In this document: piece after piece, positions 4,863 through 60,208 of the stretch | Layout: the number at the start of each line of letters is the position of its first letter | How positions within the stretch are numbered: the stretch's first letter is position 1 | Origin: Bacteroidales bacterium | GTDB lineage: Bacteria; Bacteroidota; Bacteroidia; Bacteroidales; P3 | Direction of reading: 5' to 3' | DNA: 64,000 nt | Assembly (NCBI GenBank): GCA_030523765.1 | Contig: JAUNHX010000007.1 | Span: 1-64,000, forward strand | The notes under the pieces: generated by a model | Seen by the model: only the letters and a program-made list of their open reading frames with translations | What the model was told of the DNA's origin: nothing | Database searches by the model: none | Program-made: the position numbers and the translations under genes

Positions 4863-5681
4863 TTATTCTTCCTCTTTCTTTGCATTACGGCGGGGACGAC
4901 GGGGACGCTCTTCGCGATGTTCGGGAGCTTCCTCGGTAGCGTTCTCAACACCTTCAACGTTTTCAGCTTCTTCGGCAGCAGCATCTTTGTCGAGCATGCG
5001 TTCGTTCTGACCTTCCTGGATAGCTTCAATCATGTGTTTCAGGATGGCAGCGATCGATTTCGAAGCATCGTCGTTGGCGGGGATGGGGAAGTCGATAAGA
5101 TCAGGATTGGTGTTGGTATCAACAATAGCGAAGGTGGGGATGTTCAGACGACGAGCTTCAGCTACGGCAATGTGCTCTTTGTTGATGTCGACGATGAACA
5201 GTGCGCTAGGCAGACGGGTAAGATCGGCAATGCTACCCAGGTTCTTGTCTAATTTGGCACGTTCGCGTTGAATCTGAAGACGTTCACGCTTGGAAATATT
5301 GTTGAATTCTTTGTCCTTCATCATGGCATCGAGGGAGTTCATCTTCTTCACAGCCTTGCGGATAGTGGTGAAGTTGGTGAGCATACCACCAGGCCAACGT
5401 TCGGTAACGAAAGGCATATCTATGGGTTTCACCATCTCGGCTACAACCTCTTTAGCTTGCTTTTTCGTAGCAACGAAAAGGACTTTTTTGCCCGATTTAG
5501 CGATCTGTTTCAGAGCAGCTGCGGCCTCGTCGGCTTTAGCGATGGTCTTCTGCAAATCAATAACGTGAATACCGTTGTGCTCCTTGAAGATATAGGGAGC
5601 CATTTTGGGATTCCATTTTCTTTTGAGGTGTCCGAAGTGACAACCTGCATCTAATAATTCTTCGAATTTAAGTTCTGTCAT
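4863..5681 (-). CDS. rpsB: 30S ribosomal protein S2
   Basis: Ribosomal protein uS2, part of the small subunit head. The 272-residue protein has the typical N-terminus (LLDAGCHFGHLKRKWNPKMAPYIF at about residues 10-33), the segment FVTERWPGGMLTNF at 91-104, and the ALFIVDINKEHIAVAEA motif at about 161-177. Beyond residue 225 it carries an acidic then arginine- and lysine-rich tail of about 45 residues. Its 5' spacer of 119 bp contains an inverted repeat that could be a leader structure. It is followed by tsf. Confidence 0.97.
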   Translation of the reverse strand: MTELKFEELLDAGCHFGHLKRKWNPKMAPYIFKEHNGIHVIDLQKTIAKADEAAAALKQIAKSGKKVLFVATKKQAKEVVAEMVKPIDMPFVTERWPGGMLTNFTTIRKAVKKMNSLDAMMKDKEFNNISKRERLQIQRERAKLDKNLGSIADLTRLPSALFIVDINKEHIAVAEARRLNIPTFAIVDTNTNPDLIDFPIPANDDASKSIAAILKHMIEAIQEGQNERMLDKDAAAEEAENVEGVENATEEAPEHREERPRRPRRNAKKEEE

Positions 5682-23997: not shown

Positions 23998-24612
23998 AAA
24001 AATTTTCAATCAATTGTTGATAACTATATTTAACCATCACATCTATAACTATTTATAGCATGAAAATATTTTTTTAATGTCAAAATGGAATTCGTGCTGT
24101 TTTTGGGGCTTCTTACGACTGTTAAAAGTAATTGTTTTTTTCTTTGTTATACTCTTATTATATATTTATGTGGAAGAATGATTCGAGAAATGGAATACAA
24201 TGACATCAATCGATAGGGTTGCTGCCGCTATATCGACGCTATTCTGCCGTCCAAGAGGGGTGATTAGTTGTAGTTAATAGATAATATATCACTATATTTA
24301 TCGGCCTTTGTGTTGAGCTTCTTTGTACCTTTTATAATATTGTGTTTAAAATACATGGAAACAAATAATTAGTATGAATTTTGTAGCTTTTCTACTTTCT
24401 TTTATATTCACTGTTCTATATTATTGATAACATGATATATATTTTTTATTCTATACAAATTGATGAAAGTTACTTTTAATCTTTGATAATTGCTTTAATC
24501 TCTCCTCTATTCATGGTGTTTATTATTTCCTTCTTCAGTATTTCTTATTTCATAGTTTTAGAGAGGTTACAGAGAAGGGGATCAAAAGAGCGTGATTTGG
24601 AGTGAGAAAAAG

Positions 24613-24656
24613 TTAGAGTTAAATTAGAGTTAGGTTAGACTTGTATCAGAGTTGCA
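24613..24656 (+). repeat. 11-nt periodic repeat array A
   Basis: Four contiguous 11-nt units: TTAGAGTTAAA, TTAGAGTTAGG, TTAGACTTGTA, TCAGAGTTGCA. Consensus TTAGAGTTANN. Its period matches about one helical turn of DNA. Related arrays are seen at 49579-49611 and 56925-56994. Confidence 0.75.
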
Positions 24657-54954: not shown

Positions 54955-55169
54955 ACAGATTTCAATACTTAAGAAAAAGTGTTGTGATTTATTCGTGTAG
55001 ATGCCTCAGTAGAATCGTCTTTTTTTTAATCCAATAGTATTGATAGTTAATGGTTTAGTAACTTATCGGATAATCATTATCAAAAAAAAACTGTTGGTGT
55101 TGTAATAAAAGCGTGGGTTGTGCGATTATAGGTTGTTTAAAACATCTGTATGTAACAAAAAATAGATCA

Positions 55170-56696
55170 ATGATGATGAAAAGAATTATTACTGTATTGC
55201 TTTTGGTAGTTTGTGTTGCTGCCACATTGTCTGCTCAAGATATAATCTACCAACAGGGCTCTGCTGTGAACAAAAAGGCATACGAACCTGTTAGGGTACA
55301 CCTAGTGCCAGGAGTTGAGAAAGGGCAAATCATATCGGTAGAACCGGAATTGAAAGCCGTAGGGGTAGGAGAGCCAGGAACATCGATGCGACGTATCAAA
55401 GCGTATCGAGTGCGTTTGGTTGATTCAGAGTGGAATGAGTCGAAGGCTATAAAAATTGAAAATTCGGCAGCATGGGATGTTATGGATACCTATCTTAGTG
55501 GTAGGACCCTTCATGTGCTGTTGTTCCAAGTGGATGGTAGTCAGTATGCCCTTCGCCATTTGACCTTCGAGGCTACGACGCTTCAACAGTTATCCGACAA
55601 TCGTCTCCTTGATTTGTCCCTCGAACGGCAAAGTGAGGGTTGGTTCAAATATGCTTCATCGCCCAACGAAGCCTATCATGGAGTAGCTTTCTCGGTTTGG
55701 AGTAAGCATCAAATGGTGGAAACCCATGTAGCACTCTATGACAAGGATATGAAGCAGTTATGGAAAAATGTTATCAGAGACAATAATGCCCATCAGCTCA
55801 TTGTGACAAACGAAGGTACTATCGTGATTGGTAGTTTGAGTTATTCTGACAAGAATAAGGATGAAACGGTGGCTCGCTTTAGTGTGGCCAATGCCGAAGG
55901 GGCGAAAACAGCCGATTATATTACTACCGATGACATTGAAAATTTATCGCTCTTGGGTTACAATGGAGGCAATATAGTGGCTTCCGTTCTCGAAGGCAAA
56001 GGGGGCAAGGGTTTGATTCAGTTCAGATCCCGTTCGGGTATTACTGGACGTACCTATCCTGCTATGCATGGTTATTTGTTCAATATTGATGCTGGCCGCA
56101 TGATTACCGACAACCGACATGAGTTTTCCGATGAGGAACGGGCAGTGTTTTACAATTCCAAAATAGCTCCTATTACGGGTCCCAATTTCCTATCGACAGC
56201 CGATCAGCTTACGACAACCGATGGTGGTTATGTGATTTATCATCGTATGTGGAAAGAGGAGACGCGCAATGTCAAAACAGGTATGACTACCAATGAGGCA
56301 GTGTATAGTCGCGGTATGCTGCTGGTATATGTCGATAATGCTGGCAATGTGGTTTGGACACGAGGAATTATGCAGAATAATCAGAATGCAAATTGGCCCA
56401 ATGTGGAGGCCGATCTGTTTGAATATAAAGGCAACCTGTACGTGTTAATGAACGAAGCAGAGGATGCTCCCGACGAGTATACGCTTGAACCAGCATTGAA
56501 TAGTAGCAAACTGCTGTTGGCCAATTTGGCGTTGGCTATCTATAAGTTTACACCTCAAGGCGAAGGTTCGAAGCAGATGTTAGTGCGCGATGGAAAGCAT
56601 CTGATCTTTACCCCTTTAAGTAGGGATAAAGATGGCCTTTTCTACTTCTTAACGGGGTCGATATTCCCTAAAATTAGTTCGGTAGTGATACCTTAG
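55170..56696 (+). CDS. Secreted protein of unknown function
   Basis: I do not recognise a family. The 509-residue protein has a signal peptide (hydrophobic segment at about 7-22, ending LSAQ). The mature chain is beta-rich with recurring strands of the form x-V-x-L-Y-D-x-D-M-K-x-L-W-K and LLVYVDNAGNVVWTRG, which suggests a WD40-like or beta-propeller shape without clear repeat borders. There is no T9SS tail and no lipobox, so it may be periplasmic or released by another route. The ATG at 55170 (three in a row) was chosen; a longer frame would need a GTG at 55113. Confidence 0.78.
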   Translation: MMMKRIITVLLLVVCVAATLSAQDIIYQQGSAVNKKAYEPVRVHLVPGVEKGQIISVEPELKAVGVGEPGTSMRRIKAYRVRLVDSEWNESKAIKIENSAAWDVMDTYLSGRTLHVLLFQVDGSQYALRHLTFEATTLQQLSDNRLLDLSLERQSEGWFKYASSPNEAYHGVAFSVWSKHQMVETHVALYDKDMKQLWKNVIRDNNAHQLIVTNEGTIVIGSLSYSDKNKDETVARFSVANAEGAKTADYITTDDIENLSLLGYNGGNIVASVLEGKGGKGLIQFRSRSGITGRTYPAMHGYLFNIDAGRMITDNRHEFSDEERAVFYNSKIAPITGPNFLSTADQLTTTDGGYVIYHRMWKEETRNVKTGMTTNEAVYSRGMLLVYVDNAGNVVWTRGIMQNNQNANWPNVEADLFEYKGNLYVLMNEAEDAPDEYTLEPALNSSKLLLANLALAIYKFTPQGEGSKQMLVRDGKHLIFTPLSRDKDGLFYFLTGSIFPKISSVVIP

Positions 56697-56857: not shown

Positions 56858-56897
56858 AAAAAGGATGCTTGCATAAAATGCGGTATCCTTTTTTTGC
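56858..56897 (+). terminator. Bidirectional terminator between convergent genes
   Basis: AAAAAGGAT (56858-56866) pairs with ATCCTTTTT (56885-56893); inside, GCAT and ATGC extend the structure. T-runs are present on both strands. It separates the secreted-protein gene from the response regulator. The first part of this gap (56697-56857) shows nothing else. Confidence 0.75.
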
Positions 56898-56924
56898 ATA
56901 GAATGGATTTGTTCAATTCTAAAG

Positions 56925-56994
56925 TAAGACTAATGTAAGAATAACTTAAGTATAACATAATACTAAAATAAGACTAACATAAGTCTTACTTAAA
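56925..56994 (-). repeat. 11-nt periodic repeat array C
   Basis: Units in strict 11-nt phase begin at 56925, 56936, 56947, 56958, 56969, 56980 and 56991: TAAGACTAATG, TAAGAATAACT, TAAGTATAACA, TAATACTAAAA, TAAGACTAACA, TAAGTCTTACT, TAAA. On the minus strand, after rotation, the consensus is TTA(G/T)NNTTANN, the same form as array A. The ends also form an inverted repeat (AAGTAAGACT at 56922-56931 with AGTCTTACTT at 56982-56991). Confidence 0.8.
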
Positions 56995-57062
56995 CCCTCC
57001 TCAAAAAAGGTGTCGTTTTCCGATATGTTATTTTGTTTATTGGAAGGGTGGAACAGGAGTTG

Positions 57063-57902
57063 CTATCGGCGAGTAAGGAACGCCACACGTCGCGGATCAA
57101 GAAGCCCTAGCAAGATGGCTTTCGCCACACGGGCACCCGATTTGTTGACGATATTGAGTCGGGCAGAGATATCTTTCTGCATATCTTGAACCGATTTCTC
57201 GCTTTCGGAGAAGATAGGACTCATACGCTGGGCTATTTCGGAGGCGGTACAACCAGCTGCTTCCCATAGTAGTAGTGCCCGTTCGCGTTCACTGAAGTCG
57301 CCATATTCAGTCGACGAGCGAGCCACCGAAGCAAAGTATTGTTCGGCAGCTTCTTTAAGGGTAATCATTACGGGATAATTGAAATAGAATTGTTCTCCTC
57401 GTTCAAGACTAGAAATAGCTTGGAGAATATTGTCGATACTGAATCCGCCTACAGCGTTTTTGCTAACGAAAGCGTTGGCCCCACGATGAAGGGCTTCGAA
57501 AACCACTTGCCCAATCTCCTCCATACGTTGACGACGATCGTTGCCCGCTTCGTTCAGATTGTCGAAACGGCCGCTAAGGATGATAATGCCTATAGGAGTA
57601 TGGTTTGAGGTTTCGTATTGGCGTCGTACCTTCTGTGTGATGGCTATGCCGCCCGTAGGTTCACCCTGCAGTTCCATATCAACAAGCAGATAGTCGGGTT
57701 TGGGACGCGAGGGATCGTTCAACGCTGTATAGAGTTGTGGCCCGTTGGCAAAGGTATCGAGCACCTCAACCTCTTTAGTTACCACTTCACCATCATCAGT
57801 AAGGAGGCATTGTATTTGAGCGTGACTTTCGTTGAGTTCGTACTTGATGGCTTTGCGGATAATAGGCTCATCATCAACAATCATTATCTTAAGCGTTTCC
57901 AT
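57063..57902 (-). CDS. Response regulator with LuxR-type helix-turn-helix
   Basis: Two-component regulator of 279 residues. The receiver domain has acidic pocket residues D10-D11, phospho-acceptor D75 (PDYLLVDMELQG) and the lysine in ANAFVSKNA, with an insertion of about 20 residues before the phospho-site. The C-terminal part (SERERALLLWEAAGCTASEIAQRM ... KSVQDMQKDISARLNIVNKSGARVAKAILLG) is a NarL/LuxR-type DNA-binding domain. The ATG at 57902 was chosen; a start at 57920 would be TTG. It is divergent from, and surely partnered with, the histidine kinase at 58094. Confidence 0.9.
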   Translation of the reverse strand: METLKIMIVDDEPIIRKAIKYELNESHAQIQCLLTDDGEVVTKEVEVLDTFANGPQLYTALNDPSRPKPDYLLVDMELQGEPTGGIAITQKVRRQYETSNHTPIGIIILSGRFDNLNEAGNDRRQRMEEIGQVVFEALHRGANAFVSKNAVGGFSIDNILQAISSLERGEQFYFNYPVMITLKEAAEQYFASVARSSTEYGDFSERERALLLWEAAGCTASEIAQRMSPIFSESEKSVQDMQKDISARLNIVNKSGARVAKAILLGLLDPRRVAFLTRR

Positions 57903-58007
57903 TTTGTGGCATATTTTCAAGTACTAACGTAGGAAACGTTTTTTTTATTGCTAACGGTAGAATGAAACATGAAGGCTCTTAGATGATGGACATATGAGAA
58001 AAAAGCG

Positions 58008-58015
58008 TATATTTG
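58008..58015 (+). promoter_or_regulatory. -7 box (TATATTTG) of the histidine kinase gene
   Basis: TATATTTG followed by GCAT, as at other strong starts in the window. No good -33 element; leader about 75 nt. The 191-bp divergent region also must hold the response regulator promoter, which I could not place. Confidence 0.65.
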
Positions 58016-58093
58016 CATTTTGATTAGGATGAATCATAGATCCATTCTGTTGGATATTGTGATTTGGAAACGTGGATGTTAGAATATTAAAAG

Positions 58094-60208
58094 ATGAGAA
58101 AAAGAGCGCTTTTCAAATGGTTCTGTTTTATGTTGCTGATGATGTTATCGGCAGCATGTAGCCGCCAGTCGGAGTCGGACAATCTGTTGTTGCGTTCCCG
58201 TATTGATGGCTATAATAAGGATGCTTTCCTTCTTCGCTATCGCGATCCTGTAAAGGGTATGCAACTGGCCGACAGTGCGCTACGGCTTATTGCCGACAGT
58301 ATGCCCGATTATCAAGATGGTTATTTGCGGGCATGCAATAATGTGGCCTATAGTAAGTATATGCTTTCCGACTATGATAGCATGTATGTATATACTTCGG
58401 TATGTTTCGATAGTTCACTGTCAACAACGCAAAATGATCATCTTGAGATTGAGCAACTTATTGCACAACTCCTCTCGGCTCGTGTAAAACAACGTCAGTG
58501 TTATACTGCCGAATCGTATCAGATTCTATACGATATTGATCACAGCAAGGTACTGGAACGGAGTACTGGCAACGATTTGCATGATTTTGCCCTCATGGAA
58601 TATTATATCACCTCTATTACGCTCAATTATTTTTTCCGTTATGGTGCTTTGGATAATGTGCGTGGTATGCTCGATGAGATTGAGGCGGTGAAACCAACGC
58701 TACGTTGCGATTATGCACAGGATATTTCGCTCAATTACGCGATGGCTCATAGCTATTACAAACTCTGCGATTCGTCGGCCGAACAGCATAAGTATTTGCG
58801 AAGGGCATTGGAACTGTGTGAGGATAATCTTAGAATTATCAGCGATAGTGTAGTGTTCGACCCCTATCATCTAGCTAATGTTTATCAGTTAATGGGCTTA
58901 ATGCGCTCTGATACCCTCATCAAAGAGGCATCGTGGCAAGCTAATAGCGATGTGTTGGATTGGATTTATTATGCAATGGATCATGTTTTCCATTTCAACC
59001 TTCAACCTGACGAGGATTTTACTTTAGCACTATTTGCAGAAAGCACAGATCTCTTTTGGCAACTCGACGATCCTTATCAGCGGCTAGGTGCTGCTGTTAC
59101 AGTAGCCGACTATGCGATGACAATAGGCGATACCGCTTTGGCACGCGAGTATTATTTAGCGGCACTATATGATACAACGCTAGTTGACTTTATTGCCCCT
59201 AAGTTTGAACTGCGACTCTATGCAGGCCTCATCAATAGTGGTGCTGCTCTCAACGGTGACGAATTGCGATTATGGTTCGCTAAAGAGATAAGTATATTGC
59301 AATTTATTGGTCAGAACGAGCGGGCCGATTTCCTATTGCAACGCGAATTGAGCGATGTGAGGAAAACCAACAAGGTATATGTGGTCTTCTTCATCGTAGT
59401 GGCATTACTGAGTCTGTTCTTAATCTTGGTAACTTGGCAGTTGGCCAAGAAAACAAGAGCTCTTCAGCGTGAAACTCAGCGCCTAAAGGAGGCTAAGGAG
59501 CAAGATGTGGAGCGTATAGCCAATGTGGAAACGTGTCTCTCGGTACTACGACACGATATCAATCCTTTTATCTCCTATCTTCAAAACAAAAATCTGCCCG
59601 AGGCACTCAAACAAGAGGTGTTGGGACGGATGACAAGAACGTTCGATAACATCAAAGCTTGGACCACCATCAGTTTGCCGGGTGGATTGCAGTTCCGTCC
59701 CTCGCGTTTCGCTCTGCAAGAGGTATTCGATATTGTTGACGATAATATCCTTAATGCTCGCCCCGATAGGGTGGAACTCAGATTTCAACCTACCGCAATT
59801 CGTGTATGGGGCGATTCTCAACTGCTGGTAATTCTGCTTCGAAATTTGGTAAGCAATGCGGTTCAGCATACTGACGAGGGATCGATAGTAATCGATGCAA
59901 ATATTTGTGATGAAGATACTCGATTTATAGAGGTAACGGTAGCCGATACGGGCTGCGGTATGACCCCCGATGAGGTGGAGGATCTTTTCCGTACAGATAA
60001 AAATGTTACACAGCGTACCAACTCGGCAGTATCGGGAGCCAGTGGTAACGGCTTTGGGCTCATTCTATGCCGCTATATCATCAAGCAGCACGATGATCAT
60101 ACATTGCGTGGTTGTCGCATATGGGCAGAGAGTGAGGTAGGAAAGGGTAGTACGATGCATTTCTTGATAGCGGTAGATCAGAAGGGTGATCAAACAAATA
60201 ATGAATAG
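58094..60208 (+). CDS. Sensor histidine kinase with periplasmic TPR-like region
   Basis: Membrane histidine kinase of 704 residues. The N-terminus is a signal or anchor (hydrophobic 9-21, with a possible lipid-anchored C22), then about 400 mainly helical periplasmic residues of TPR-like character, one transmembrane helix (about 428-449), a short coiled coil, the phospho-acceptor H487 in VLRHDINPFISYL, and an ATPase domain with N box (LLRNLVSNAVQHTDEGS), VADTGCGM and GFGLILCRYIIKQH. The signal is unknown; helical-repeat sensors often detect stress or cell-wall state. A HEXXH protein gene follows after 6 bp. Confidence 0.92.
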   Translation: MRKRALFKWFCFMLLMMLSAACSRQSESDNLLLRSRIDGYNKDAFLLRYRDPVKGMQLADSALRLIADSMPDYQDGYLRACNNVAYSKYMLSDYDSMYVYTSVCFDSSLSTTQNDHLEIEQLIAQLLSARVKQRQCYTAESYQILYDIDHSKVLERSTGNDLHDFALMEYYITSITLNYFFRYGALDNVRGMLDEIEAVKPTLRCDYAQDISLNYAMAHSYYKLCDSSAEQHKYLRRALELCEDNLRIISDSVVFDPYHLANVYQLMGLMRSDTLIKEASWQANSDVLDWIYYAMDHVFHFNLQPDEDFTLALFAESTDLFWQLDDPYQRLGAAVTVADYAMTIGDTALAREYYLAALYDTTLVDFIAPKFELRLYAGLINSGAALNGDELRLWFAKEISILQFIGQNERADFLLQRELSDVRKTNKVYVVFFIVVALLSLFLILVTWQLAKKTRALQRETQRLKEAKEQDVERIANVETCLSVLRHDINPFISYLQNKNLPEALKQEVLGRMTRTFDNIKAWTTISLPGGLQFRPSRFALQEVFDIVDDNILNARPDRVELRFQPTAIRVWGDSQLLVILLRNLVSNAVQHTDEGSIVIDANICDEDTRFIEVTVADTGCGMTPDEVEDLFRTDKNVTQRTNSAVSGASGNGFGLILCRYIIKQHDDHTLRGCRIWAESEVGKGSTMHFLIAVDQKGDQTNNE

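Follow-up and report, generated by a model that had tools for sequence, protein, structure and literature searches.

Downstream of a response-regulator gene in the genome of a rumen Bacteroidales bacterium lies an intergenic run of diverged 11-nt units, here called array C. Is it an accident of AT-rich DNA, the relic of one local expansion, or part of something wider? The window, that is, the whole stretch of 64,000 nt that was analysed, was re-read at this place, and the genome and its relatives were searched for similar arrays. The answer is that array C belongs to a dispersed family of elements built of 11-nt modules, of which it is one copy, worn and quasi-palindromic.

Array C and its surroundings

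The features in and around array C are the following.

55113..56696, plus strand: open reading frame of 527 aa with no Pfam match, which ends 223 nt before array C and is convergent with the regulator gene
56858..56895, no strand assigned: bidirectional terminator-like hairpin with a T-run, to the left of array C (sequence)
56919..56995, plus strand: array C, seven 11-nt units, a degenerate member of the CTAACYTAAST family (sequence, TRF, shuffles, pattern search)
56922..56931, plus strand: left arm of the terminal inverted repeat, AAGTAAGACT (sequence, fold)
56982..56991, minus strand: right arm of the terminal inverted repeat, AGTCTTACTT (sequence, fold)
57063..57920, minus strand: response-regulator gene (receiver domain, PF00072, by Pfam match), with its 3' end towards array C

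From position 56919 the units read CTAAAGTAAGA CTAATGTAAGA ATAACTTAAGT ATAACATAATA CTAAAATAAGA CTAACATAAGT CTTACTTAAAC, the last ending at 56995. TRF detected the array independently (56919-56983, period 11, 5.9 copies, 77% match, 0% indel). Identity at lag 11 is 0.74, while at other lags, 22 and 33 aside, it lies between 0.23 and 0.46. The best 66-nt stretch has 49 lag-11 matches; shuffling the 366-nt intergenic region 20,000 times with its dinucleotides preserved gives a mean of 26.1 (sd 2.6) and a maximum of 40, so that no shuffle reaches 49. The pattern TAANNTAANNNTAANNTAANNNTAANNTAA with at most one mismatch has five matches in the window, all of them within array C, and none in 100 shuffles. 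The inverted repeat at the ends belongs to a quasi-palindrome that takes in nearly the whole array and folds at -18.4 kcal/mol, compared with -6.5 for shuffles (z -5.1). The initial annotation had described an array of 11-nt units between the terminator and the 3' end of the regulator gene, with a 10-bp inverted repeat at its ends, and all of this is borne out.

Does the array belong to the regulator gene? The receiver-domain regulator is present in 71 of 79 genomes of the genus, but an array at its 3' side is not conserved, and no orthologue of array C was found in the gap downstream of the regulator at the readable loci of sister species that were compared. The corresponding gap in G077 (L280) holds an unrelated 11-nt palindrome, CATATGTACGGTATTTGTACAGTATATGTACATATG. 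Note also that the receiver-domain protein and a divergent HATPase_c protein of 704 aa (window 57063-60208) are likely a two-component pair.

A dispersed family in the same genome

Are there other copies? The initial annotation had proposed a search of the genome for them, with their absence as the result that would count against it. In the genome of the window (G000, 95.8% complete) there are about 30 intergenic arrays with the consensus unit CTAACYTAAST. Genome-wide, TAANNTAANNNTAANNTAANNNTAANNTAA gives 53 matches, compared with one for the reversed control, and CTAACYTAASTCTAACYTAASTC gives 50 compared with none, these counts resting on pattern searches and fetched stretches; a DNA search gave a second match in the same genome. 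The window itself contains one more member.

24606..24654, minus strand: array B, second member of the CTAACYTAAST family in the window (TRF, pattern search), with cores CAACTCT, CAAGTCT, TAACTCT and TAACTCT and spacers GATA, AACC and AATT

The module in G000 can be described as a 7-nt core plus a 4-nt spacer, YAASTCT+NNNN. The usual order of units is TTCTAACT, CTAACCTAAST, CTAACTTAAST, CTAACTTTT. Most of the arrays are one-armed tandem 11-mers without terminal repeats, a common leader or a common tail, and their flanks are unrelated to each other. None of the 25 that were examined lies inside a predicted gene, although one reaches into the end of a short ORF. Array C is among the most diverged members of this family; it now fits the family core poorly and is probably a decaying copy. 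An old tandem expansion, which had been offered as one origin of array C, is insufficient as a purely local event, because units of this type sit at about 30 unrelated places in the genome. Upstream of guaB in G000 (L111, array 5208-5251; L115), a second short 11-nt array of another type, CGAAG (TTCGAAGGCATCTCGAAGCCACAGCGAAGGTATCTCGAAG), adjoins a TAACTCT array.

Species-specific modules

How widely is the family spread? The exact pattern CTAACYTAASTCTAACYTAASTCTAAC was searched for across 84,980 species genomes, and was found only in six rumen Bacteroidales MAGs, in 57 stretches. The G000 unit is absent from most other species of the genus. Of 29 further species of the genus whose guaB region was compared, about ten have period-11 arrays with different units upstream of the gene. 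A de novo scan of stretches from five species gave further period-11 arrays, mostly intergenic and often in the form of long inverted repeats. Taking 20 stretches from 19 species of the genus against stretches from 20 other families, there are 20 period-11 arrays in 400 kb of the genus and none in 261 kb of the other families. The modules differ from species to species, the consensus being TAASTCT-AACY in G000, CAASTCC-GACC in G009 and GTTCTTC-GATT in G029. In G009 the module CCGACYCAACT has 79 genome matches; in G012 there are two different modules with 39 and 38 matches, and the second (AACCGAAGAAC, 38) has none in nine other genomes. The initial annotation missed that array C is a copy of a dispersed repeat, that nearly all of it is a quasi-palindrome, and that the units of sister species are different ones.

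Many species are united when the module is read as a 7-nt core and a 4-nt spacer. Cores of the form YAWSTCY reach at least five times the control in 21 of 50 genomes of the genus, with a maximum of 277 matches in G009, and they occur also in G041, a Bacteroidales genome of another family (43 compared with 2 in the control). Cores of a second type, CGAAG, are strongly represented in G029 (166 compared with none in the control) and in others, their counts in G087 and G032 being less certain since the control is also raised there. In G087, which belongs to another Bacteroidales family (L269-L273), CGAAG cores recur every 11 nt with highly variable spacers, in runs of up to eight or nine that are mostly single-sided and look more like arrays of protein sites than like copied repeats.

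In architecture the elements are either single arrays or pairs of arrays that face each other. In G009 an element consists of a leader, TAACTGCCTGATACTTAGTAC, followed by four to five modules and an inverted arm, which is short. G041 elements have about four modules facing four. G029 elements are near-perfect palindromes of about 110 bp whose length steps by 11 and whose outer ends fade with no abrupt stop. Elements of G029 and of G041 have shared inverted ends, and their folding energies are -91 kcal/mol (z -19) and -93 kcal/mol (z -16) respectively, while the typical G000 array hardly folds (z -2.0). In G029, within-genome copying is directly visible: one identical four-module string, with the same variant of module 3, is found at dozens of unrelated loci.

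Spacing and concerted evolution

The initial annotation had suggested that spacing is kept by selection on helical phase. In six data sets, 409 neighbouring exact cores are 11 nt apart, one pair is 10 apart and none is 12 apart; the next steps are 22 nt (251) and 33 nt (122), with none at 21, 23, 32 or 34. The 4-nt spacers of the same cores carry 253 mismatches to the local majority. Intergenic alignments of the sister species G009 and G022 have 179 substitutions and 6 indels, and at this ratio of 30:1 the 253 changes in the spacers should be accompanied by about eight errors of spacing, where one is seen. The 11-nt register is thus held better than drift predicts, with the caution that the units are copies and the events not independent. 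For selection on helical phase the family as a whole speaks in favour, as the modules hold their distance in nearly every case even though the spacers vary, under the same caution. Conservation of core and spacer differs among genomes: 1.32 compared with 0.69 bits in G009, a weak contrast in G000, and none in G041 or G029.

Do the elements stay in place while their modules change? G009:C1 and G022:C16 are syntenic, and at two loci of this pair the orthologous element is in place while its spacers differ in step, being mostly GACC in G009 and TACC in G022, most clearly at guaB. Likewise, near guaB both G029 and G012 have elements of the GTTCTTC type, with GATT and GGTT spacers respectively, and the copies elsewhere in the two genomes differ in the same manner. 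The divergent gap between a lipoprotein gene and guaB carries an array in G000, G009 and G022. At a third locus the element is found in G009 and G022, a different 11-nt palindrome at the syntenic locus of G070 and only a terminator in G002; note that G002, whose short site (locus 2) is free of the element, is too distantly related for an insertion junction to be defined. The elements thus evolve in concert at conserved sites, with the modules of one element, and of one genome, changing together. With their positions kept across species, they look more like old residents than like products of active transposition.

Proposed explanation

What kind of process could spread a module through a genome and still keep its period? 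With moderate confidence, we regard the family of array C as short intergenic repeats of exactly 11-nt modules that have spread by copying, with a reader of duplex sites keeping the register. The elements would spread and homogenise by copying within the genome, through transposition-like insertion together with gene conversion or template switching, and one of the last two may be the simplest homogeniser. Each module would be a putative duplex DNA site, and a DNA-binding protein that oligomerises would contact one such site at every turn of the helix. Recognition of duplex DNA at every turn is suggested because the 11-bp register is fixed and the modules of the two arms are independent. Most simply, the putative protein would be the factor that moves or organises the elements. 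Several observations count against this explanation: neither a mobilising enzyme nor a reader protein was found, no target-site duplication was clear, element positions are kept across species as in old residents, and the contrast between core and spacer is weak in G000 and missing in G041 and G029.

A further-reaching possibility, which we put forward tentatively and with considerable doubt, is that an undescribed system spans the chromosome, with the arrays as its DNA half. An oligomerising protein or a templated copying enzyme would read or write one 11-bp module per helical turn, and module and reader would change together as species diverge, giving each species its own genome-wide code at partly fixed sites.

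Alternative explanations

Could the elements be ordinary MITEs or REPINs, non-autonomous palindromes whose mobility comes from a transposase, whether RAYT/Y1 or a DDE enzyme that works on terminal repeats, with the 11-nt modules as incidental internal repeats? They are intergenic and species-restricted in copy number as such elements are, those of G029 and G041 are palindromic copies with common ends, and there is a precedent in BrickBuilt of Porphyromonas, a MITE with an internal 23-nt minisatellite (PMC4596501). We nevertheless consider this unlikely. Y1_Tnp (PF01797) was not found in G000 or in G009 (95% complete), both of them rich in arrays. No clear target-site duplication was found in 17 + 11 elements, the best candidate being shared by 3 elements where about 0.1-1 would be expected, with many offsets tried. 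Outer ends that fade, positions that are conserved across species, and G000 arrays that are mostly one-armed and lack terminal repeats also argue against it.

Another explanation is that the arrays are operators of an OmpR/PhoB-type regulator, whose head-to-tail winged-helix dimers would bind 7+4 direct repeats resembling pho boxes and so define a regulon. The exact 11-bp, 7+4 geometry matches such operators, and the core is firmer than the spacer in G009 and weakly so in G000. Arrays are commoner at the 5' ends of genes (147 compared with 88). Every array-bearing genome tested has one to five Trans_reg_C proteins, most of the genus having just two. In codirectional gaps of G000 all eight arrays point with the genes, the gap defined by an 83-aa ORF being left out, but the same count in six relatives gives 11 concordant and 11 discordant, that is, no bias. 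The recognition helices argue against this explanation: among the OmpR/PhoB proteins recovered from the genus, not every copy being readable, they are practically invariant (ER[SA]VDVHIARLRKKLG or HVARLRKKLG in family a, FAARSMDVYITKLRKYL in family b), while the modules differ between species. Moreover, the neighbours of the arrays are unrelated housekeeping genes (guaB, dnaG, recR, an ATPase gene), and spacers that such a regulator does not contact would not be expected to change in step. Operators of this kind are therefore very unlikely. As a separate observation, G000, G009, G012, G022, G029 and G073 each have only two OmpR/PhoB-type proteins, one from each conserved family.

Even less do we expect that the elements act as RNA hairpins (terminators, RNase III sites or attenuation sites), with 11 nt as one turn of A-form RNA. 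The folds of G029, G041 and array C are strong, and terminators adjoin array C and locus 2 of G009 and G022. However, the weak fold of the typical G000 array speaks against this. Many elements stand on the upstream side of divergent promoters, away from the transcribed ends of genes, and a search of Rfam matched the elements to no family. Furthermore, in G041 a CAGGTCC variant stands at non-matching places in the two arms, with no covariation. Lastly, AT-rich low complexity or local replication slippage with no family behind it, to which the AT-rich array C with TAA recurring at 5-6 nt might point, can hardly be upheld and is already refuted by the shuffles and by about 30 places in the genome compared with none or one in the reversed-pattern controls.

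Some further candidates were rejected. A promoter-polar regulatory element does not agree with the orientation counts in the six relatives. A replication-polar motif of the KOPS or Chi kind was dropped, since 12 arrays out of 25 are oriented as the local GC skew would have it, a rough measure as the MAG contigs are unordered. As for a phage-borne element, four-core patterns are found in only 7 viral-contig stretches.

Comparison with known systems

Direct repeats of 11 bp are known from the Pho box (OmpR/PhoB-type) and from the iterons of ParR-parC, where head-to-tail or helical protein oligomers read them. The arrays here share the repeat length, but come without a regulon and without an adjacent cognate gene, and the available OmpR-type proteins have recognition helices that stay the same whatever the module.

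Closest in taxon and as a dispersed minisatellite is BrickBuilt of Porphyromonas gingivalis, a minisatellite-MITE of up to 991 bp with a 23-nt unit, a leader, a tail and IS5-like terminal repeats (PMC4596501). It too is intergenic and species-restricted in Bacteroidales, with about 20 dispersed tandem-repeat copies per genome, and some copies have inverted-repeat ends (PMC4596501). The elements here, in contrast, are of 40-110 bp with 11-nt modules that differ between species, and in G000 they have no leader or tail. Closest in role and palindromy are the REP elements (PMC3733652), single hairpins of 20-40 bp from two super-families tagged GTAG and CGTC, the former being tied to Y1 transposases (PMC3733652, PMC3116915). 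REP, BIME and REPIN elements are likewise small palindromes of extragenic DNA that reach tens to hundreds of copies, many of them species-specific and many arranged face to face (PMC3733652, PMC3116915). Here, however, the modules are tandem 11-mers, no GTAG or CGTC tag was seen (the palindromes of G029 and G041, about 100 bp, have other ends), and the two array-rich genomes searched lack a Y1 transposase. Closest as direct repeats without a known reader are the TAACTGA heptamers of Beggiatoaceae, Cyanobacteria and some Bacteroidetes, which are short-unit intergenic repeats at many loci, 7-nt contiguous and of one fixed sequence, and which in a Beggiatoa genome stand mostly just before start codons (PMC4679880). 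The elements here differ in being 11-nt, species-specific, often inverted and usually 50-600 nt from genes. The genus is rich in tandem repeats of period 7 (7/14/21/28) as well, AATTGAG and AACCTGA being two examples (L061 3300-3500; L291, downstream of the regulator; L302; G080, G023 and G012, L158-L164 and L150-L153); none was found at the same threshold within the window, and they are possibly related to these heptamers (PMC4679880).

The species-specific 11-nt module is absent from the BrickBuilt, REP and TAACTGA systems, and the best reading of the family is as a new REP/MITE-like class of extragenic repeats. A literature search gave no description of 11-bp arrays in Bacteroidales, which is not proof of absence; as far as could be found, the family was previously undescribed.

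What does the family mean for these bacteria? Dispersed extragenic repeats are common, but it is unusual among them for the period to be fixed at 11 bp across a genus when the unit is not the same from species to species and changes in step at conserved sites. A very short sequence is here evolving in concert at tens to more than 100 loci. The species form a natural series for finding the reader or the copying enzyme, which would be a protein whose specificity changes with the module. The elements may be the Bacteroidales counterpart of REP/BIME elements.
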